A DNA stretch of 64,000 nucleotides from positions 124,001-188,000 of the forward strand of contig NZ_NJER01000003.1 of the NCBI RefSeq assembly GCF_002753895.1. The letters run 5' to 3'. Shown here piece after piece: positions 37,100-57,951 of the stretch. This DNA comes from Halobacteriovorax sp. JY17. GTDB lineage: Bacteria > Bdellovibrionota > Bacteriovoracia > Bacteriovoracales > Bacteriovoracaceae. The number at the start of each line of letters is the position of its first letter. The stretch's first letter is position 1. Under the pieces are notes generated by a model, which was not told the origin of the DNA, ran no database searches, and saw only the letters and a program-made list of their open reading frames with translations. Both the position numbers and the translations under genes were made by a program.

Positions 37100-37804
37100 C
37101 TAATCTTTAAACATCTCTTCAAGTTGTTTATTTGATTCTTTTAACTTCTCAAGGTTTTTATTCATTTCTTTCAAAGCCGAACTTCCTTCTATTAGGCTCT
37201 TAACCTTCTTAGAATCTTCAGTTTCTTTACCATGATATAAATCATTGAGAGCGCCTTCAGTATTTACAGTGTTCTCAGATCCTTCAAAAGAAAAACTAGA
37301 TGGTGAACCAAGAGTTGAACAGTTTAAAACTCTCCCCTCTTTATCTAACTCTAAGCTTAATTTTACAACTCTAACGTACTTCTTAGCCCCATAAGACTTT
37401 CCTACCTTAGAAAAGTTAAACACTAGTTGCATAAGCCCTTTGAACTCAGAATCTTTTTCAAAATTTCTTGTCGTTATAGAGTCTAATCTAATTAAACCTA
37501 ACTCGTAAATTTCGCCTTTTTTATAAATTGGTTTCCCATTGGATTTTAGAATATCTTCTAATTCAAATTCAACTCCATCCTTCAAATATACTCCCTCAAA
37601 GTTCTTAGCACAGTAACCTGGCCTTGCAAGATATGCTTTTGCCTCTGAGTAAAAGTTTTGAACTGCAGCTCTGGAGCGAAGAGATTTTTCCGATAATGTT
37701 TGATTTTCCATTAACTTCATCATCCCAAGTGATAACAACCCCATCATTCCAGCGGCCATCATAATTTGGACCATGGAAAAACCATTATTATTTAATTTTC
37801 TCAT
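37100..37804 (-). CDS. type IV pilin-like protein (prepilin leader)
   Basis: The 234-aa product begins MRKLNNNGFSMVQIMMAAGM, a short basic leader ending in Gly8, then Phe and a hydrophobic helix. This is the class III (prepilin peptidase) signal found in pilins and pseudopilins. Position +5 of the mature protein is Gln instead of the usual Glu. The C-terminal domain is larger than in minor pilins, with two cysteines and a helical Glu/Lys-rich end (EMNKNLEKLKESNKQLEEMF). It could be a minor pilin, a secretion pseudopilin or a surface protein using the same export route. No other pilus gene is nearby. Confidence 0.75.
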   Translation of the reverse strand: MRKLNNNGFSMVQIMMAAGMMGLLSLGMMKLMENQTLSEKSLRSRAAVQNFYSEAKAYLARPGYCAKNFEGVYLKDGVEFELEDILKSNGKPIYKKGEIYELGLIRLDSITTRNFEKDSEFKGLMQLVFNFSKVGKSYGAKKYVRVVKLSLELDKEGRVLNCSTLGSPSSFSFEGSENTVNTEGALNDLYHGKETEDSKKVKSLIEGSSALKEMNKNLEKLKESNKQLEEMFKD

Positions 37805-38095: not shown

Positions 38096-40750
38096 TTAAG
38101 CCGCTTTCTTTTTATTTATAGCTAATTTTCTTTCGAATTCTGTAACTTTAGATTTCAGGAGGTTGGCTTCTTGCTTATATTTGAGAATTTCTTTCTTTTT
38201 CTCTGCCAACTCAGCCTTTGCCTTATCTGACTCTGCTTTGAAGTTATTATTCAACTTTTCAAGTTGTTTGATTTTATGCTGAAACTTTGCACTATCTGAC
38301 GACTGAGTAGAGCTTCGACCTGAACCATTTTTACTGCTTGATTCTTCGACCTGTGCTGTTAAAAATTTATTCTTCTGCTCAAGTTGCTTTATCTTAAGTC
38401 CAATCGCTTTATTCTGATCGCTTCCTTTTTTAATTTCTAAGACAAGCTTTTCAATTTCTCTTTCTTTTTCTACAACTAAGTTTTGGTCAGATTCTAAATT
38501 TCTGCTTGGCACGACAACTTCTGATAACTCTGCTTGAACTTTTTTTAAGTTTTCAACTTCTGCTCCCAACTCTTTATTCTCTTTTTGTAATTTATTTATA
38601 ATTACCTGACTCTTCATCATCTTCTCTCTAAAGTGAGTCGTGTCAGCATCTGCCTTAGAAGTAGAATTTCTTTTCTCATCCTCTAGTTTTGTATTTAAAG
38701 TTTCACTTCTCTCTTTTGCTTCTTCTAGCATCGTCTCCAAGGTTTTAATCTTAGACTCATACCCTTTAGCCTCTGCACTTGCTAAACCCTTATGAAGAAC
38801 ATGGTCTATCGCCTCATTTGTTCTCTTCTCAGTTTCATTATTAGTAACGATATTTTCTGTATTTGTTTTTAAAATTTCTATTTGTTTATTCTTTCTTTCA
38901 AGCTCAGTGTTTAATCTTGAAATCTCAACATCGTGACGAACATCGTCGACCTTATTATTCTTACTTGATGAAACTAGAAGTTCTTTTTTCATAACATCTA
39001 TTAATTTCATCATACGACTAAGCTGAATGTCTTTCTTAGCTGAGGCTTCTTTTAATTTTTCAAACTCAGTACTATCAAAAGAAGGGACTTCTCTCTTCTC
39101 ATCAGAAACTGTTTCAAGAACCGAATCATTTAAGAGACCTTGAACTAAAGCGGAGGATTCGCCTTCTGAAATATTCATTCTCTCTCTAAGCATAGTTGAT
39201 ACTTGAACACTTAGATCTTCATGCCCTTTAATTTCATCACTAGAAATTTTTCTCTTAATATCAGCAACGAGGCTATCTCTAGTGCTTCTCCACTTTGGTA
39301 ATTCACCTTTCACATTAGAAAAATCTCTCTCCGCCTCTTCATTAACCTTAAGACTCTTTACTTCAAGAATATCTTTATTTTGTCCAAGATCCTCTTGAGA
39401 GCCATTGATGATAACTTTTTCGTTATCTTCCTCTTCTTTAGAGCCTTTAATTAGTTGTGACGTTTCCCCTATATCTTCTCTAGCACCTTTAATAACTGTC
39501 GTCGTCTCATCAGCTTCATCCACCCATCCTGAAACTCTTTCGATTGCCTCTGTGTAGTCTTGAACACCAAGACTTACAATTTCATTGGCCTCATCAATAT
39601 TTAAGGACTCTACTTTCTTTAGGAATTTTTCTAATATTTCTTTTTGATTACTGGAAGTCTTTTTAATTTCTAAAGATTCTTTAATTTCATTATGTTTCTG
39701 TGAGTTTAATAGTAAATTTAAAATTTCTTCTTTAGAATCTAGGTCTAATTTTGATATTAAATTCTGATTTGGATAATCGCGGAGCACACCTGCCAAGCTA
39801 TCTAATGTGATTTCTTCAACATCAATTTCTTTCATTTCTAGAAAGTTAACAATTCTTGAAATTGAACTCAGTGAGATACTTTTTCCCTTGTCCTTACCTA
39901 GTTCCAAATGAAGATCTTCTTTATAATTGATTTTAACTTTATTAGGCTTCTCACCTTCAAGAGAAGGTCTCACTGCTTTAAACTTGTCGATCCCATGAAT
40001 ATAAATTGACTTAGAACTACTCACATCTTTAGTCCATGCAGATGTAATCACAAGCTTACTAGAACTTTTTAGTGTATAAATATCTAACGATGTAGCCTCT
40101 TTGCCCATGCCAGATAAACTTCCTTCCTCTTTAGAAAGCGCCTTCCAGACAAGCTCACTATAGAATTTTTCAACAGGAAAATGAGCTTGTAAAAAAAAGG
40201 TGTCACCACATATTCCAAAATCGACATCGAGAGGAAATGATCCTTTCTCTTTCTGAATAACCTCAGACACATAATTAAACAAATGAAAAAGTCCCTTCTT
40301 TATATTAAAGAAGTCAAACCCTTCTTCAGCAGCTTTTACCGATATGGAATCACAATAGAAACCTGAATTTAAATGATCGGTAACTTTAACTTTTCCAAGA
40401 GAGCGCAATTCCTCTGTAAGACCACTATTCACTTGAAGAGTTGCGCTATCACCTAAGAGTCTCTTAAAGAAGGTTCTCTCTATTTCGCTCTGTAATAATT
40501 CGCTAGATATTACTGCGACACCACCCATTTCAAAAAAGGATTCACGGTCATCAGTTTCTCCAAACAAAATAAACCTTCCCTCTTTAGAACCTATTGCATC
40601 AACATGATCAATAAGAGTGAATTCATAATCAAAGTCAGGGCTATAGGATGCTTCTATGACATAGTCTAATTCGGCAAGAATAGAAGTTACAGACTCTGGC
40701 AGATCGCCTTTCACTAAATTTAGGATATACTTTTTTACTTTATCCATCAT
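38096..40750 (-). CDS. 884-aa cytoplasmic protein with long C-terminal coiled coil
   Basis: No signal peptide or membrane helix is seen. Residues 1-270 look like a globular alpha/beta domain. A central acidic, Ser/Glu-rich linker carries repeats around INGSQED, IKGSKEE and IKGARED (about residues 420-455). From about residue 560 to the end heptad-rich sequence (ERKNKQIEILKTNTENI, LEEAKERSETLNTKLEDEK, EKKKEILKYKQEANLLK) forms an extended coiled coil. Its start overlaps the stop of the pseudo-HD-GYP gene by 4 nt (ATGA), so the two are probably made together. The three IKG/ING-SxED repeats could be phosphorylation or binding motifs (inference). The family is not recognised. Confidence 0.8.
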   Translation of the reverse strand: MMDKVKKYILNLVKGDLPESVTSILAELDYVIEASYSPDFDYEFTLIDHVDAIGSKEGRFILFGETDDRESFFEMGGVAVISSELLQSEIERTFFKRLLGDSATLQVNSGLTEELRSLGKVKVTDHLNSGFYCDSISVKAAEEGFDFFNIKKGLFHLFNYVSEVIQKEKGSFPLDVDFGICGDTFFLQAHFPVEKFYSELVWKALSKEEGSLSGMGKEATSLDIYTLKSSSKLVITSAWTKDVSSSKSIYIHGIDKFKAVRPSLEGEKPNKVKINYKEDLHLELGKDKGKSISLSSISRIVNFLEMKEIDVEEITLDSLAGVLRDYPNQNLISKLDLDSKEEILNLLLNSQKHNEIKESLEIKKTSSNQKEILEKFLKKVESLNIDEANEIVSLGVQDYTEAIERVSGWVDEADETTTVIKGAREDIGETSQLIKGSKEEEDNEKVIINGSQEDLGQNKDILEVKSLKVNEEAERDFSNVKGELPKWRSTRDSLVADIKRKISSDEIKGHEDLSVQVSTMLRERMNISEGESSALVQGLLNDSVLETVSDEKREVPSFDSTEFEKLKEASAKKDIQLSRMMKLIDVMKKELLVSSSKNNKVDDVRHDVEISRLNTELERKNKQIEILKTNTENIVTNNETEKRTNEAIDHVLHKGLASAEAKGYESKIKTLETMLEEAKERSETLNTKLEDEKRNSTSKADADTTHFREKMMKSQVIINKLQKENKELGAEVENLKKVQAELSEVVVPSRNLESDQNLVVEKEREIEKLVLEIKKGSDQNKAIGLKIKQLEQKNKFLTAQVEESSSKNGSGRSSTQSSDSAKFQHKIKQLEKLNNNFKAESDKAKAELAEKKKEILKYKQEANLLKSKVTEFERKLAINKKKAA

Positions 40751-41700
40751 GAGGCTATTTGCTCCTGATTGGCTACGTCTAAAAATATATCTCTAATACT
40801 CTCTTTAAATGATTTAACAAAAGAGTCATCCTCTTCGCTTTCTTTAAAAATTCCTTTAAGAAACTCAACACCATCATTTTCTGAAAAATCAAATTCTGAG
40901 TAAGGAAGAGTTCTTTCTATGAAAATTGAAATTTTTTCAAGCTCACTTAATTCATTAAAATTGAGCCCTATTCCTTTTTCACTGCCTTCAAATTCTTCGT
41001 GATGGAATTGAATCAGTCTGGAGAGATGCTTATGACTTAATTGATAATATTTTGATTTCTCATAGGCCATGAGAGACTCGCTAATATGATCGAGATCACC
41101 AATCTTATAAGTATTCTTTGCGTATGAGTAATCATTGAAAAAACTTATATTATAAAGATCTGTTAAGAAACTTCCGTGAGTATATCCTGCAGACAAGGCA
41201 AGAAGAGTTACTAGGGAAGAAAATAAACTCGCTCTTCTAAGTGTACTCAGAGCATGTTGATCCATCTCTTCTTCAAAGCTTGGAGAAATTTTATAAAATG
41301 TATCTTTGAAAATAATTACTAGGCTCAATAGAGATCCATCTAAATCTCCATTCCAATAAGTTGGTAGAATGTGTTTGAGCAATGAATCTCGATATGAAAG
41401 TCTTTCTCTCTCATTTGTGGACACGAGAAGCTTTGAGAGAAGGTCTTTAGCCACAGCTATAAAATCTTCATTACAAACTTCATTTATAAATAAGTATTCT
41501 GTTACTTTTTGAAATTTTTCTAGTTTTGAAAAGTCGAGATAGTCTCCGCAGTGAAGAAGCTTAACAAGTTTACCATCTGACTTCTTCCAATATAGATCCC
41601 CATGAGAAGTTTTCATCTTCTCAAGGTCGTTAAATGAAATGGGTCTTAACTCTCCAATAGCTTCAGCAGAACCCTTAGATGAGTCTAAATTTTTAAACAT
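40747..41700 (-). CDS. degenerate HD-GYP domain protein
   Basis: The product is 317 aa from the ATG at 41700, which has GGAG 6 nt upstream; a GTG at 41712 would add 4 residues. The C-terminal half aligns by eye with the HD-GYP protein at 57223. QHALSTLRRASL matches the first His helix, ISFFND matches LFHD (His replaced by Asn), and FHHEEFEGSEKGIGL matches HHERYDGRGYPDGL (GYP lost). With the HD pair and GYP broken, c-di-GMP hydrolysis is unlikely; a binding or scaffold role is more likely (inference). The N-terminal 120 residues resemble the variable sensory half of such proteins. It is coupled to the 884-aa coiled-coil gene. Confidence 0.75.
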   Translation of the reverse strand: MFKNLDSSKGSAEAIGELRPISFNDLEKMKTSHGDLYWKKSDGKLVKLLHCGDYLDFSKLEKFQKVTEYLFINEVCNEDFIAVAKDLLSKLLVSTNERERLSYRDSLLKHILPTYWNGDLDGSLLSLVIIFKDTFYKISPSFEEEMDQHALSTLRRASLFSSLVTLLALSAGYTHGSFLTDLYNISFFNDYSYAKNTYKIGDLDHISESLMAYEKSKYYQLSHKHLSRLIQFHHEEFEGSEKGIGLNFNELSELEKISIFIERTLPYSEFDFSENDGVEFLKGIFKESEEDDSFVKSFKESIRDIFLDVANQEQIAS

Positions 41701-41751
41701 GCATTTCTCCACAAAACTTATCGGAAAAATACAGTAAATGATTAGAATTAA

Positions 41752-41782
41752 AGAAAAAAAAAGCCTCCAGAAACGGAGGCTA
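41752..41782 (-). terminator. terminator of the ABC permease operon
   Basis: GCCTCC-AGAAAC-GGAGGC (41763-41780) forms a 6-bp stem. On the minus strand it is followed by TTTTTTTTTC. It lies 20 bp past the stop at 41801. Confidence 0.88.
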
Positions 41783-41800: not shown

Positions 41801-42709
41801 TTATTTTCCCTTAAGCTTAGGATCTAGTGCGTCTCTAAGAGCATCTCCTAGCATATTAAGAGAGAGAACAACTATCATCATAGCAAGAGTAGCTGCTCCA
41901 AGTTGCCACCAGACACCTCTTGCAAGCTCAAGTTTAGCATCGTCAATCATTGTTCCCCAACTAGGTCTACCTTGAACTCCTAGACCTAGATAAGAAAGAA
42001 TCACTTCTGTCTTGATCGCCGTTTGGAACATTAATGAGAAGTTGATTATCACTAAGTGAGATACGTTTGGAAAAATGTGCTTAATAAGCTTTCTAGAGTG
42101 TCCTCCGCCTAGTGCAGATGCCGCTTGAACGTAGTCTCTATTCTTATGTCTCATTACCTCACCACGGATCAGTCTACAAAGATTCACCCATGAAGTAAGC
42201 CCTAGGGCCACATACATTGAAACAAGTCCTCTACCAAGAACAAATGAAAGAGCTACTAAGAGCATAATTGTTGGGATTGATTGAAAGCAAGTGTAGAACC
42301 AAACAATTACTTCATCTACTTTTCCACCGAAGTACCCTGCGATACTTCCCATAACAACACCAATACAAACAGAAATAAGAGCGGCTACAAGTCCAACCGA
42401 CATCGCAACTTCCGTTCCTTTAATCATTTTTGTAAAAACGCTTCTTCCGAAAATATCTGTTCCAAATAGGAAGTCTCCGCCTGGAGCTGAGTAAGAAGGC
42501 CCTACTTCAACTGCCCAGTCAGAAGCAATGAGACCAGTTGCTGAAAGAACTGATATAAGTGCATACACTCCAACAATGATCAATGACATTACGGCCATTT
42601 TATCTTTAAAAATATTTTCGACGGCATGATCCCAAAGGGATTTTGATTTCTTCAATTTAGATTCCTCTATTTCTACACCCTCTACGGATTGAATACTTGA
42701 TTGTGACAC
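41801..42709 (-). CDS. peptide-type ABC transporter permease, OppC/DppC-like
   Basis: The 302-aa product has an N-terminal helix (KMAVMSLIIVGVYALISVL) and the family segment GTDIFGRSVFTKMIKGTEVAM. The permease EAA loop is YVQAASALGGGHSRKLIKHIFPN. The C terminus PRWGTMI-like stretch (RPSWGTMIDDAKLELARGVWW) and LRDALDPKLKGK are typical of OppC/DppC. The start is GTG with AGGAG upstream. The oppB-like gene ends 9 bp before it. Confidence 0.93.
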   Translation of the reverse strand: MSQSSIQSVEGVEIEESKLKKSKSLWDHAVENIFKDKMAVMSLIIVGVYALISVLSATGLIASDWAVEVGPSYSAPGGDFLFGTDIFGRSVFTKMIKGTEVAMSVGLVAALISVCIGVVMGSIAGYFGGKVDEVIVWFYTCFQSIPTIMLLVALSFVLGRGLVSMYVALGLTSWVNLCRLIRGEVMRHKNRDYVQAASALGGGHSRKLIKHIFPNVSHLVIINFSLMFQTAIKTEVILSYLGLGVQGRPSWGTMIDDAKLELARGVWWQLGAATLAMMIVVLSLNMLGDALRDALDPKLKGK

Positions 42710-42718
42710 TTCTCACTC

Positions 42719-43660
42719 CTACTTAAGTCGAACTCTTGGATCTACAATTGTGTACAGAACATCAGTAATAACGCTAAAGATGATATAGGCCATTGCTGTC
42801 AAAATAGTCATTGCCTTAATTACTGGAAAGTCTGAATTATAGACACCATTCAATGTGATTCCACCAAGACCTGGAATACTGAAAAAGCTTTCTAAGAGGA
42901 GAGCTCCAAGTATCAGGAAAGGGATTTGAATAACAACAAATGTGATAATAGGTATCATTGCATTCTTTAAAACGTGCTTAAACAAAATAACTCTTTCAGA
43001 AAGACCTTTCGCCTTAGCCGTTCTTACATAATCTTGATAGATTTCATCTAGCATTACTGTTCTATAAAATCTCACATCAGGACCAATCGAGAGAATAATC
43101 CAAATGATAATTGGCAGAACAACATATGGAACAAAGTCAGGAAAACCAGACTCATAACCAGAAATTTCAAACCAACCTAACTTATAAGCAAAGAACCATT
43201 GCCCAAATAGGATATAGGCAAGAGAAGTAATACTCATCAGAAGTACGCAAAAGAATACCGCGCACTTATCAATCCATTGCCCTCTAAAGAAAGAAACAAC
43301 GAGAGAAATTGATACTGCAATTATTGTAGAGAGCACAAATGCTGGTAAAGTCAGAGTTAAAGATGGTATTGCACCATTTTTAATCATCTGAATAATTTCC
43401 TGCTTAGTTGTCCACGATCTACCAAAATCAAAAGTAAATGCTGATTTAACAATATCTAGGTACTGGGCCCACATTGGCTTATTTAGTCCTAATTCGTTTC
43501 TAAGGTCTGCAATTTGAGAAAGTGTTGCATGTTTTCCAAGCATAATAAGGGCCGGATCTGGCGCAACAACATTAAATATAATAAATATTATCAATGCGAC
43601 CCCTAGGATTGTAGGGATTATGTAAAATAATCTTCTTAAGATGTACTGCCACAAATTCAA
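42719..43660 (-). CDS. peptide-type ABC transporter permease, OppB/DppB-like
   Basis: The 313-aa product begins LWQYILRRLFYIIPTILGVA, the hallmark of OppB/DppB permeases. The EAA loop is YVRTAKAKGLSERVILFKHVLKNAMIP, followed by LLLESFFSIPGLG and the C terminus DVLYTIVDPRVRLK. It pairs with the OppC-like gene downstream to form the membrane channel. It is separated from the binding-protein gene by a hairpin terminator, so expression is probably lower than that of the binding protein. Confidence 0.94.
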   Translation of the reverse strand: MNLWQYILRRLFYIIPTILGVALIIFIIFNVVAPDPALIMLGKHATLSQIADLRNELGLNKPMWAQYLDIVKSAFTFDFGRSWTTKQEIIQMIKNGAIPSLTLTLPAFVLSTIIAVSISLVVSFFRGQWIDKCAVFFCVLLMSITSLAYILFGQWFFAYKLGWFEISGYESGFPDFVPYVVLPIIIWIILSIGPDVRFYRTVMLDEIYQDYVRTAKAKGLSERVILFKHVLKNAMIPIITFVVIQIPFLILGALLLESFFSIPGLGGITLNGVYNSDFPVIKAMTILTAMAYIIFSVITDVLYTIVDPRVRLK

Positions 43661-43681
43661 AATTAACCACCTGATTAATGT

Positions 43682-43705
43682 AAAAAGCCCTCTACAAGAG
43701 AGGGC
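43682..43705 (-). terminator. hairpin terminator/attenuator between oppA-like and oppB-like genes
   Basis: GCCCTCT-ACAAG-AGAGGGC (43687-43705) forms a perfect 7-bp stem. On the minus strand it is followed by TTTTTA. It lies 20 bp after the binding-protein stop, the usual place for a partial terminator that keeps solute-binding protein in excess. Confidence 0.85.
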
Positions 43706-43725
43706 CGAGATTTTTAAGTTATAAC

Positions 43726-45489
43726 TTAAAGTTTTTCAATAGATTTAGCTTTAAGCTCCGAATCAATATTTAAATACTGAGCCTGACCTGTTTCAAAGTC
43801 AGTGGACATATAATTCTTTAAGAATGAATGTCTAAGCGTAAAGTTTTGTCTATGAACACCGTAGATCCATGGAGCTTGCTCAGCTGCAATTCTATTCATT
43901 TTCTCATAGAGAGCTGTTCTCTCAGGAGAATCTTGCATTACAGAGGCTGTCTTAAATAATTTATTAAATTCTGGATTATTATATCCCGAACCATTTGCTC
44001 CTGGAGCTTTATTTGGTCCGTATAAAAGTTGTAAGAAGTTTTCTGCATCTGGATAATCCGCTCCCCATGCAATTCCGTAAAGCATTACTTGCCTTTTTGT
44101 AATCTTCTTCTGAAGTTCTGGCCAAGGATTAGTTACAACTTTAATTCTTACTCCGATTTGAGCAAGTTGTTGCTTCATGTAATCACCAATTTGACGAGAA
44201 ACAGTTCCCGATGGGCAATCGTAAGTAATCTCTGGAAGACCTTTACCTTCAGGGTAACCTGCTTTTGCAAGTAGTTTCTTAGCTTCTTCGATATTTGGTC
44301 CTCTATAAGGAGAGACATAGCCTGGGATATTTCCAGCAATTCCTGGAGGAACTACTGACTGAGCCGGAAGAGAAGTGTTGTTGTAAAATAGCTCATTAGA
44401 CTTCACAACATCATATGCAAGAGACATTGCTCTTCTTAAGTCAGCATTTTGAAAAAGTTTTAAATCATGATTAAACGCTGTGTAAGTAACATCAAGAGAT
44501 GGATTGATCAGAAGACTAATCCCTTTTTTCTCATATTCAGGAGACAGGTTTCTATCAGGAGTTACTGCTGAATCAAAGTTATCTTTTGGAATTCCAATGA
44601 AATCAACTTTTCCTTTTAGAAAGTTTAGCCATCTTGGTTGAGATTCAATAATAACATTCACTACTACCTTATCTACTAATGGAAGCTCTTTACCAGCATC
44701 TTTTAAAAAACCTGCTGCCTTAAATTCATCGCTCGCCTCAGTTGGGTAGAGCTTCTTTCTAAAGTTAGGGTTCTTTGTATAAACGATTTTCTTCGTCTGC
44801 TTAAACGTTGGAAGAATAAATGGACCAGTTCCCACAGGATGGTTTAAAAATTCCTTTCCGTATTTTTCAACAACTTCTCTAGGAGTTGCAAAAGTAAACG
44901 GCATGGCTAAAGAATAAAGAAACTGAGGGAATGGTTTTGTTAATTTAAATTCCACAGTATATTTACTTGTTGCTTTTAAACCTTCAACTACTTCATCATA
45001 ATCTACACTTGGAAGATCTGAATACTTTTCTCTCCACTCATTAAGTCCCTTAATTTTTCCATCAAGTAACCACCAACCAAGTCCCTGAAGCTTTGGATCA
45101 GCAAGTCTCTTTATAGAGTATACAAAGTCCTCTGCAACAAGTTCTCTACCCTTTCCATTTGGAAATGCAGAATCATCATGGAAGAGAACACCTTGGCGAA
45201 TATTAAAAGTATAAGTAAGGCCATCTTCAGAAACAACTGGCATTGACTCAGCAAGGTTAGGAACAAGAGTGTATGGTCTTTTTAAGTAGTGGTACTCTAA
45301 TAGACCTTCGTAAACACGACCTACTTCATTACTTGAATAACGGTCATTTGCATAAATTGGATCCATACCTTTAACTTCAGCAGATACAGCAATATTTAGC
45401 GTCTTACCCGTTTCCACGTTCTTCTTTGTACAACTTGCAAATCCAATAAGGAGAGCGATTGCTGTAAAAAGTGTTGTAAACTTCTTCAT
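43726..45489 (-). CDS. peptide-type ABC solute-binding lipoprotein, OppA/DppA-like
   Basis: The 587-aa product has signal peptide and lipobox GFASC (Cys20). Family segments include GLLEYHYLKRPYTLVPNLAES, the SBP_bac_5 signature DFVYSIKRLADPKLQG, HPVGTGPFILPTFK and WGADYPDAENFLQLLYGPN. The late TDFETGQAQYLNID and the overall length fit cluster C binding proteins for oligopeptides. It is tethered on the outer face of the inner membrane, feeding the OppB/C pair. The two ATPase subunits (OppD/F) are not in the window. Confidence 0.94.
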   Translation of the reverse strand: MKKFTTLFTAIALLIGFASCTKKNVETGKTLNIAVSAEVKGMDPIYANDRYSSNEVGRVYEGLLEYHYLKRPYTLVPNLAESMPVVSEDGLTYTFNIRQGVLFHDDSAFPNGKGRELVAEDFVYSIKRLADPKLQGLGWWLLDGKIKGLNEWREKYSDLPSVDYDEVVEGLKATSKYTVEFKLTKPFPQFLYSLAMPFTFATPREVVEKYGKEFLNHPVGTGPFILPTFKQTKKIVYTKNPNFRKKLYPTEASDEFKAAGFLKDAGKELPLVDKVVVNVIIESQPRWLNFLKGKVDFIGIPKDNFDSAVTPDRNLSPEYEKKGISLLINPSLDVTYTAFNHDLKLFQNADLRRAMSLAYDVVKSNELFYNNTSLPAQSVVPPGIAGNIPGYVSPYRGPNIEEAKKLLAKAGYPEGKGLPEITYDCPSGTVSRQIGDYMKQQLAQIGVRIKVVTNPWPELQKKITKRQVMLYGIAWGADYPDAENFLQLLYGPNKAPGANGSGYNNPEFNKLFKTASVMQDSPERTALYEKMNRIAAEQAPWIYGVHRQNFTLRHSFLKNYMSTDFETGQAQYLNIDSELKAKSIEKL

Positions 45490-45603: not shown

Positions 45604-46308
45604 TTATTCACAGCGGTTAAAGAATAGTTCAACCTTAAATGAATCCTTGCTTTGCTTATTATCAAGGGGATAGATAGAAAGACGCTTTGGTCCATTACTT
45701 GTGAGGCTAGAAAAGTCGAACCTCATAATATTGCCCTGATCGTTAGCTCTATCTATAAAGAGATGCTCATTTCTAATGCTCCAAAGCAGATCTCTCGTTC
45801 CGACGCGGCATTTGCTCTTCGAACAAGTCTTAGATCCAACCTGGCTTAAACTCTCGCTTAAATAAATAATTTCACCTAAGCCATTTGCAAATGATTTCAA
45901 ATGACTCAAGTTATCTTTTGAATCTTGGTGATTTCTAAGTGATGTATAAATTCTTCTAGCAAAATTTCCCTTTAACTTTGCCCCAGACCTTTCAACATCT
46001 CCCCAATAGAGAGATAGCAACTCAGAGCCATGCAGTGGAATATCAACGGCCATTTTCCAGACTTTCTCTTCTGTGGAACTTACTGACTCGTAAGAAAACA
46101 AAGTAGTACTAGAGAGAATTTTTATTCTCCCTCTACCTTCTCCAGACAAGCATAAATTTGTTAATTGATTTCTTAGCTCTGAAAGAGCTTCTACTTTAGG
46201 GCCATTATGTGCACAAGAAAGTAGTATTAACGAGACGCAGGCAAGCGAAGCTTTTCTAAGCCACTTAATTCTTTTAGTACGTCCTGTCTTTCCGATTCGA
46301 CTTTGCAA
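45604..46308 (-). CDS. lipoprotein of unknown function overlapping the TPR gene
   Basis: The 234-aa product has a basic n-region (GRTKRIKWLRK), a hydrophobic core and lipobox LLSC with Cys32. The mature domain has four further cysteines (TCSKSKC close together, one near the end). No family is recognised. The only usable start before the lipobox is a TTG at 46308, which lies 82 bp inside the upstream TPR gene in another frame and has no clear ribosome-binding site. It may be reinitiated from the upstream gene. Confidence 0.65.
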   Translation of the reverse strand: MQSRIGKTGRTKRIKWLRKASLACVSLILLSCAHNGPKVEALSELRNQLTNLCLSGEGRGRIKILSSTTLFSYESVSSTEEKVWKMAVDIPLHGSELLSLYWGDVERSGAKLKGNFARRIYTSLRNHQDSKDNLSHLKSFANGLGEIIYLSESLSQVGSKTCSKSKCRVGTRDLLWSIRNEHLFIDRANDQGNIMRFDFSSLTSNGPKRLSIYPLDNKQSKDSFKVELFFNRCE

Positions 46309-57222: not shown

Positions 57223-57951
57223 ATGGATAAGAAAAAAGATAATGTTATTTCTCTTCAATCAGTTGTCGCAAATGTTGCGATGCTTGACCTTGTAAAGCAG
57301 GTTCGCGAACTTCGAGAACAGCAGCAAGAAATGTGTGAAATGGCAGTAAAAAGTATGCTTAGAGCACTTGATGCTAAAGACCACTATACTTACGGACATA
57401 GCATGAGAGTTGCCTATTATAGTGTTACACTAGGAAAAGAGCTTGGTCTTAATGACGAAGAAATGTATGAATTAGAAATGTCTGCACTCTTTCATGATAT
57501 TGGAAAAATTGGTGTTCCAGACGCTGTCCTTTTAAAACCTGCAAGACTTACTGAGGATGAATTTCTCAAAATGAAAGCACATCCAAGTCTAACTGCGGAA
57601 ATTCTACAAGACTTTGATTGCTTTAAAGATATTGCGACATATGCTAAACATCACCATGAAAGATATGATGGTCGTGGTTATCCTGATGGACTAAAGGGAG
57701 AAGATATTCCTTTATTCTCTAGAATTATTTTGATTGCCGATACATTTGATGCCATGACATCAACACGCCCTTATAGAAAAGGTCTTCCATACGAAGTGGC
57801 CTTTAGTGAGCTTGAAGAATTTTCTGGTTCACAATTTGATGCTGCTCTTGTAAAGCATTTTATTACAGCAATGACTAGAGAGGACTCAAAAGGTGAAGAT
57901 ACTTTTGAACTTACAATTATTGATGGGAACTTTGCTAAAGACGCTGCTTAA
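57223..57951 (+). CDS. HD-GYP domain phosphodiesterase, active-site motifs intact
   Basis: The 242-aa product has a short helical N terminus (about 1-45) and then a complete HD-GYP domain. His59 is in YGHSMR, the HD pair at 91-92 in LFHDIGKIG, HHHERYDG at 143-150 and GYPDGL at 152-157, with ADTFDAMTSTRPYR at about 172-185. All metal- and substrate-binding motifs of c-di-GMP-hydrolysing members are present (family knowledge). No receiver or membrane domain is fused, so it may be regulated at expression level or by a partner. It is monocistronic, with a shared terminator downstream. Confidence 0.93.
   Translation: MDKKKDNVISLQSVVANVAMLDLVKQVRELREQQQEMCEMAVKSMLRALDAKDHYTYGHSMRVAYYSVTLGKELGLNDEEMYELEMSALFHDIGKIGVPDAVLLKPARLTEDEFLKMKAHPSLTAEILQDFDCFKDIATYAKHHHERYDGRGYPDGLKGEDIPLFSRIILIADTFDAMTSTRPYRKGLPYEVAFSELEEFSGSQFDAALVKHFITAMTREDSKGEDTFELTIIDGNFAKDAA

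Follow-up and report, generated by a model that had tools for sequence, protein, structure and literature searches.

What might an HD-GYP protein do once its catalytic residues have decayed, and why is its gene joined to that of a long, partly coiled-coil partner? This question is raised by two genes in a stretch of 64,000 nucleotides (nt) of DNA, referred to as the window, from a relative of the predatory Halobacteriovorax bacteria. Gene 1 encodes a degenerate HD-GYP protein, and gene 2, whose start overlaps the stop of gene 1, encodes its partner; Table 1 lists the open reading frames (ORFs) and other features of the locus. An earlier note, made from the sequence alone, had described the pair as a pseudo-HD-GYP protein coupled to a coiled-coil protein of 884 amino acids (aa) and had proposed a cyclic di-GMP (c-di-GMP)-binding or structural complex, for example in polarity or motility. 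At a probability of about 0.5, we favor the reading that the two genes encode a putative translationally coupled, non-catalytic signaling complex that would work in a manner similar to FrzS and AglZ of Myxococcus xanthus.

Table 1. Features of the gene 1/gene 2 locus in window coordinates (gene 1 residue numbers count from GTG 41712)
Feature	Coordinates	Strand	Details
Gene 1, degenerate HD-GYP protein	40747..41712	minus	ORF, 321 aa from GTG 41712; likelier 317 aa from ATG 41700
Gene 1 N-terminal domain, apparently Bd1817-like	41473..41655	minus	residues ~20-80; aligns with N-terminal columns of HD-GYP proteins of the same genome
Gene 1 pseudo-HD-GYP domain	40777..41295	minus	residues ~140-312; AlphaFold2 model, Foldseek, VIA-align
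ND at the HD diad, gene 1	41131..41136	minus	residues 193-194
HHE, gene 1	40996..41004	minus	residues 237-239
ATGA shared by gene 1 stop and gene 2 start	40747..40750	minus	4-nt overlap
Gene 2, partner of gene 1	38096..40750	minus	ORF, 884 aa
Tentative pseudo-receiver, gene 2	40451..40750	minus	residues 1-100; beta-alpha order in model, some helices missing
Bergerat/RsbW-like domain, gene 2	40016..40417	minus	residues ~112-245; without recognizable ATP boxes
Four in-phase 14-aa repeats, gene 2	39390..39535	minus	approximately [IV]-x-G-[S/A/W]-x-[ED]-[ED]
Coiled-coil region and conserved K/E-rich tail, gene 2	38096..39073	minus	residues ~560-884
Terminator-like hairpin and T-run	41762..41781	minus	between oppC and gene 1
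oppC, oppB, oppA (peptide ATP-binding cassette [ABC] transporter)	41801..45489	minus	upstream of gene 1; names assigned here from sequences

The gene 1 protein alone had no Pfam match at an E value of ≤10 and none in NCBIfam; its two matches to PDB sequences (best E value, 1.5) were not meaningful, and BLASTP against the HD-GYP protein at 57223 returned short matches only (best E value, 0.056). Because the single protein was nearly silent in these searches, relatives were required to test the HD-GYP assignment. When a profile of 40 gene 1 orthologs was compared by hhalign with eight HD-GYP-domain proteins encoded in the window's genome, the alignment spanned 252 columns at an E value of 2.7e-16. 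This alignment placed LFHDIGK onto FFNDYSY and HHERYDGRGYP onto HHEEFEGSEKGIG, confirming the changes from HD to ND and from GYP to GIG, together with the retention of HHE, that the earlier note had read by eye. In the PDB, the profile first retrieved Bd1817 of Bdellovibrio bacteriovorus (E value, 1.7e-5), followed by a 3'3'-cGAMP phosphodiesterase (E value, 4e-4). Pfam HD_5 was matched at an E value of ≤0.1 by 23 of the 40 orthologs (best value, 1.7e-7), the window protein not being among them. An HDOD identity for gene 1 was also considered and dropped, as the protein has no Pfam match and its orthologs match HD_5.

The AlphaFold2 model of gene 1, built from 7 sequences, reached a mean predicted local distance difference test (pLDDT) score of 78.8 and a predicted template modeling (pTM) score of 0.82. 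In Foldseek, chains of Bd1817 (PDB 3TM8, 3TMB, 3TMC, and 3TMD) occupied the top five places with probabilities of 0.90 to 0.97, and the next row had 0.04. These alignments were near full-length, yet their E values were only 0.01 to 0.04, with TM-scores near 0.3. HD or HD-GYP proteins also filled the five top rows of VIA-align, including the HD-GYP protein DvhD (Z 8.0; 3.9 Å; 152 residues aligned) and Bd1817 (Z 6.7; 4.1 Å; 113 residues aligned), bearing in mind that Z values under 8 may reflect just a common arrangement. Given the hhalign score, the Bd1817 profile match, and the top five Foldseek places, we conclude that gene 1 is a member of the HD-GYP superfamily by fold and descent. The alignment with Bd1817, the best match of gene 1 by both sequence profile and Foldseek, covers nearly the whole length: the HD-GYP half is significant, and the N-terminal half is colinear with Bd1817 residues 42 to 77, a match (2.1 bits) that is insignificant alone.

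Like gene 1, Bd1817 has an HD-GYP fold with an unconventional GYP motif, and it is described as catalytically inactive (PMC4159591). Unlike Bd1817, gene 1 lacks the histidine of the HD pair; with regard to a binuclear iron center like that of Bd1817, four metal-ligand positions remain in gene 1, as read from sequence only. PmGH is an active phosphodiesterase of the same fold family. Gene 1 keeps the positions of PmGH D222, H250, H276, and H277 and, unlike PmGH, lacks the H189 and H221 histidines. The HD pair was present in none of the 40 aligned orthologs, and the H189-equivalent position was occupied by R in 33 of 40 and by H in none. Replacing either H189 or H221 by alanine leaves PmGH with essentially no activity (PMC4159591). 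From these sequence data, a c-di-GMP phosphodiesterase activity of gene 1 is therefore very unlikely.

D194 was kept in 33 of the 40 orthologs, H209 in 27, H237 and H238 in 33 each, and E239 in 37, with HHE intact in 31; D194, H209, H237, and H238, which align with the four PmGH positions above, were retained jointly in 26. In PmGH, D222 bridges the G-M metal pair and E185 the M-H pair (PMC4159591). If H250, H276, and H277 are assigned to the G site, as we infer, the ligands on the G side seem to outlast the other metal ligands in gene 1. This pattern would suit a receptor for c-di-GMP or another nucleotide, in which a one-metal HD-GYP pocket binds the ligand uncut and gene 2 relays the signal. 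According to the same paper, c-di-GMP was captured in a PmGH subunit in which only the G-site iron was left, and alanine changes in GYP, R314, or K317 do not substantially lower PmGH activity. The residues G, F, and P prevail in the GYP columns of the family (32, 22, and 30 of 40, respectively), and most relatives outside the genus of the window are GFP-like, leaving room for binding there. The window protein has GIG instead, and the five gene 1 sequences of its genus have lost GFP while retaining HHE. Downstream of GYP, no RPYRK-like stretch, which we take to be the site of the guanine contacts R314 and K317 in PmGH, was seen by eye in the hhalign alignment of gene 1 to the HD-GYP proteins of its genome. 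As reported in PMC4159591, the GYP tyrosine of PmGH contacts the phosphate of the ligand and R314 and K317 contact the guanine, and inactive Bd1817 has a fixed closed lid. As both the GYP tyrosine and the RPYRK stretch (by eye) have been lost, c-di-GMP binding by the window protein is doubtful, and we regard a receptor function as unlikely.

Gene 2 was modeled over residues 1 to 416 from 7 sequences (pLDDT, 65.4; pTM score, 0.58). The mean pLDDT of ten-residue blocks was 70 to 87 for residues 11 to 100 and 62 to 86 for residues 111 to 250, and residues 1 to 250 were predicted to be largely globular. LvrC of Leptospira (PDB 9QIH) was the top Foldseek match (E value, 5e-5; 306 columns), although poorly superposed (TM-scores of 0.24 to 0.33; root mean square deviation [rmsd] of 21), followed by RsbW (E value, 2.3e-4; target TM-score, 0.74). 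VIA-align placed RsbW (6m37) at Z 13.1, with an rmsd of 2.0 Å over 109 aligned residues, and SpoIIAB, UsfX, a SiaB-SiaC chain, and LvrC at Z 10.3 to 13.0, all over residues ~106 to 243 only. Gene 2 is thus predicted by its model to contain an RsbW/SpoIIAB-type Bergerat fold. In LvrC, as tentatively in gene 2, a receiver precedes a Bergerat anti-sigma-like domain; PMC13269768 reports that the LvrC receiver is canonical and phosphorylated by LvrB and that the protein was crystallized with ADP. Unlike LvrC, gene 2 has no conserved receiver residues or, by eye, ATP boxes, and it carries two additional parts, namely, the repeat linker and the coiled coil. The inspected columns contained no conserved acidic pair or Lys of a phosphorylatable receiver; an Asp stood at the aligned phospho-acceptor position in 8 of 20 gene 2 sequences, including D48 in the window protein. 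Inspection by eye of the aligned helices and loops of 23 gene 2 sequences revealed no conserved N-box or glycine boxes (a Glu/Asn/Gly pattern).

With anti-sigma factors (RsbW, SpoIIAB, and UsfX) and the receiver-anti-sigma protein LvrC as top structural matches, gene 2 could be a partner-switching regulator that takes its inputs from gene 1 and the receiver-like domain and uses its RsbW-like domain to bind a STAS protein or a sigma factor. Apart from the missing ATP boxes, no sigma factor or STAS gene was seen by eye among the window ORFs around the pair, where no family search for them was made. RsbW is not known to contain a long coiled coil or repeats. We consider this explanation quite improbable.

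The remainder of gene 2 comprises repeats and a coiled-coil region with a conserved tail. The three IKG/ING repeats reported in the earlier note are real and belong to a set of four in-phase units. A degenerate two-unit DNA pattern of the repeat gave three overlapping matches, found only there in the 3.47-Mb genome, and the reversed-pattern control gave 0. Beyond residue 260, the repeat motif (13 to 14 residues) occurred 67 times in 38 homologs, compared to 13.9 times in shuffles; this excess is descriptive, since the regular expression was written after the repeats had been seen. The motif was absent in 12 of the 38 homologs, two of which (L045 and L073) are cut by contig ends, and its copy number differs among homologs, reaching about six to seven in L047. 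Tandem Repeats Finder detected no DNA tandem repeat within the gene pair. Heptad periodicity reached a nominal P value of <0.05 in residues 561 to 658 and 701 to 798 alone among 12 windows tested, that is, in two of the four windows of the C-terminal third; residues 631 to 728 and 771 to 868 were without signal. Within the coiled-coil region and its tail, the segments KQLEQKNKFL and KKKE...ELERKL...KAA are conserved. The description of gene 2 as a coiled-coil protein thus holds for the two heptad segments and was too broad for the whole; a coiled coil throughout was rejected in view of the globular N-terminal model, the fold matches, and the restriction of heptads to two windows.

We subsequently analyzed the conservation of the pair in 95 genomes of the family to which the window belongs. 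The single gene 1 protein matched 62 and residues 1 to 257 of gene 2 matched 64 of these genomes, whereas the gene 2 profile gave 69 matches in 68 genomes. At 68 of the 69 gene 2 places, a match to the gene 1 profile was located directly upstream on the same strand, so that the two genes are indeed conserved together. With the fold matches of gene 1, neither of the outcomes that the earlier note named as refuting it, the lack of an HD-GYP fold or of joint conservation, was observed. In the lone exception, G038, the two matches lie on different contigs, with that of gene 1 at a contig end. Some gene 1 profile match was present in all 95 genomes, because the profile also picks up ordinary HD-GYP proteins; among the 77 places used, four genomes (G015, G040, G063, and G070) had a gene 1 profile match without a gene 2 match, and at this level 23 of the 95 genomes were without either. 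In the 40 extracted regions, a phmmer scan yielded a gene 2 ORF in 38, always on the same strand as gene 1, and 35 of the 38 pairs had an intergenic distance ranging from -8 to +12 nt. The remaining three (L054, L061, and L074) have longer apparent overlaps, perhaps due to start choice. Across the phylum, the gene 2 profile matched 62 of 240 genomes, namely, 61 of the same family and one weakly outside it. As for conservation in predators, the pair was seen in a few named records only, corresponding to six loci of 99 pattern matches: three Halobacteriovorax metagenome-assembled genomes (MAGs), a Halobacteriovorax marinus isolate, Bacteriovorax sp. BSW11_IV, and a Bacteriovoracaceae MAG. Our search of the open-access literature found no paper whose title or opening abstract treats the pair, and the available parts of PMC11025332 and PMC12632262 hold no connection to it.

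The conserved togetherness of the two genes suggests a non-enzymatic scaffold, which is also the most economical interpretation. A predicted structural complex of both proteins, the part of the earlier proposal that fared better than c-di-GMP binding, is supported indirectly, because catalytic residues have been lost, the partner combines degenerate signaling folds with a coiled coil, and the adjacency is strict. Gene 1, which has lost residues required for c-di-GMP hydrolysis, would have retained the HD-GYP fold for docking, and it might dock onto the folded N-terminal half or the repeats of gene 2. The latter would dimerize via its Bergerat and coiled-coil parts, its receiver-like and Bergerat-like folds being kept for docking or dimerization. 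Its coiled coil may provide reach and localization, and the conserved C-terminal tail may anchor the assembly at a cell site. Such a pseudo-receiver on a coiled coil, acting in localization and not in phosphotransfer, would resemble FrzS and AglZ. FrzS has an N-terminal pseudo-receiver, a 258-residue coiled coil, and a functional tail, with receiver, coiled coil, and C-terminal tail each needed for localization (PMC1974792), and it illustrates that a protein of this design can function; AglZ likewise has an N-terminal pseudo-receiver, and its domain structure is said there to be similar to that of FrzS. A polarity or motility role of the pair can be suggested only from this architectural likeness.

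Several observations weigh against this interpretation. The likeness to FrzS and AglZ is one of description only and partial in architecture, and the descriptions drawn from PMC1974792 mention neither a Bergerat domain nor an HD-GYP partner. FrzS was not among the best 50 matches listed per search for the gene 2 model in Foldseek and VIA-align, which excludes nothing. In profile tests, which covered 24 of 30 PF13581 rows for the Bergerat domain and 30 of 30 receiver rows, there was no Bergerat signal in gene 2 (best E value of 0.074, compared to 0.057 for an unrelated comparison), and the match to 30 receivers of the same genome was weak (hhalign E value, 0.0011; probability, 20%; other targets, 0.28 or worse). 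VIA-align to LvrC covered just residues 112 to 242, not the receiver-like part. The joint retention of four metal-ligand positions in gene 1 is not demanded by scaffolding alone. A mirror-tree comparison gave a partial r of 0.77 between gene 1 and gene 2 given oppB and oppC (n = 32); against a fast-evolving control gene, the pair reached 0.51 and the combinations with the control 0.39 and 0.41 (n = 13). This signal, striking at first, was weakened by that control and was set aside as proof of binding.

The pair is of interest beyond this locus. According to PMC4159591, the regulatory role of Bd1817 "still remains to be revealed," and a Bd1817-like pseudo-HD-GYP protein with a coupled partner offers a testable handle on this orphan structure in related bacteria. 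Gene 2 would add a case in which receiver-like and Bergerat-like folds, neither with conserved catalytic residues, are combined in a single coiled-coil protein.

The weak out-of-family match of gene 2 led to a protein family, termed here the sister scaffold, with matches in 40 of the 240 genomes from across the phylum, all of them outside the window's family. In the loci examined (L186:4022-4900 and L199-L228), these proteins look, by eye, receiver-like at the start and Bergerat-like in the middle, and they seem to end in a coiled coil. Profile searches in Pfam and PDB gave scattered and coiled-coil-type matches only, the C-terminal part matching coiled-coil chains in the PDB with a best E value of 0.012. 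Regions were fetched for 30 of the 40, and in seven of these an HD-GYP profile match directly follows the scaffold gene, overlapping it or within ~20 nt. The order scaffold then HD-GYP is opposite to that of the window's pair, and the sister scaffold is shorter. The HD diad is intact in all seven HD-GYP proteins, HHE in six, GYP in five, and GFP in two; these cases are not independent, since six are from family f8 (two of one genus) and one is from f19. Homology between the sister scaffold and gene 2 is weak: the gene 2 profile reached one member with a per-genome E value of 1.9e-4 in the 240-genome search, and hhalign gave a probability of 48%, with 2.9 to 4.4% from family to family. Orthology of the sister HD-GYP proteins with gene 1 was not supported. 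In a midpoint-rooted tree of 19 of the 40 gene 1 proteins, the 7 sister proteins, and the 8 HD-GYP proteins of the window's genome, the gene 1 group stood alone on a long branch (100/100), which calls for caution, and the sisters fell among the latter. As a lead rather than a result, one might imagine a Bdellovibrionota-wide module in which a pseudo-receiver/pseudo-Bergerat/coiled-coil scaffold carries an HD-GYP protein, the latter having decayed in the window's family while the scaffold lengthened and gained repeats. We consider this doubtful; if it holds, the path from an enzyme complex to a scaffold could be traced.

The genes upstream of the pair, which the earlier note did not mention, raise a further alternative, namely, that the pair regulates or positions the oligopeptide transporter encoded there. 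In 33 of the 40 regions, the pair is preceded on its own strand by relatives of oppA, oppB, and oppC, with oppC directly adjoining the pair in 11, as it does in the window, and farther away in 22. Pfam was applied to one of these regions, L046, in which two ORFs separate oppC from the pair; both encode ABC ATPases that carry an oligopeptide-transporter C-terminal domain. Among the seven regions without oppC, three (L045, L057, and L058) hold under 1.6 kb of upstream sequence, and in L049, L052, L053, and L061 no oppC was detected at the sensitivity used. By comparison, trpS and the ORF at 37100, downstream of the pair in the window, recur in just 3 of the 40 regions; some of the 40 hold little downstream sequence. 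Nevertheless, the conserved order may be simple inheritance of gene order. In the window, 88 bp separate oppC from the gene 1 ORF, and a terminator-like hairpin lies between them (5 such sites were found in the region, compared to 2.2 expected), so that oppC and the pair are probably on separate transcripts. Furthermore, the mean identity of oppB and oppC is ~70%, compared to 23 to 24% for gene 1 and gene 2, and the partial correlation between oppC and gene 1 was -0.03. We rank the alternatives in the order nucleotide binding, sigma factor, and peptide transporter, the last being the least probable.

Regarding the start of gene 1, ATG 41700 is most likely to be used rather than GTG 41712, because a GGAG (41710-41707) stands six bases ahead of it, by eye, in agreement with the boundary at 41700 in the earlier note. 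The residues just after the GTG resemble a translated ribosome-binding sequence, also by eye.

Two further ORFs on the minus strand flank the locus. The one at 37100-37804, which begins 291 bp after gene 2, encodes 234 aa with a prepilin-like N terminus (GFSMVQIMMAAGMMGLL, by eye); it had no Pfam match over the cutoff, and a similar ORF lies downstream of the pair in 3 of 40 regions. The other, at 45604-46308 beside the opp block, evolves fast and encodes 234 aa; its product, predicted by eye to be a lipoprotein, had no Pfam match and has a relative in 16 of the 40 regions.

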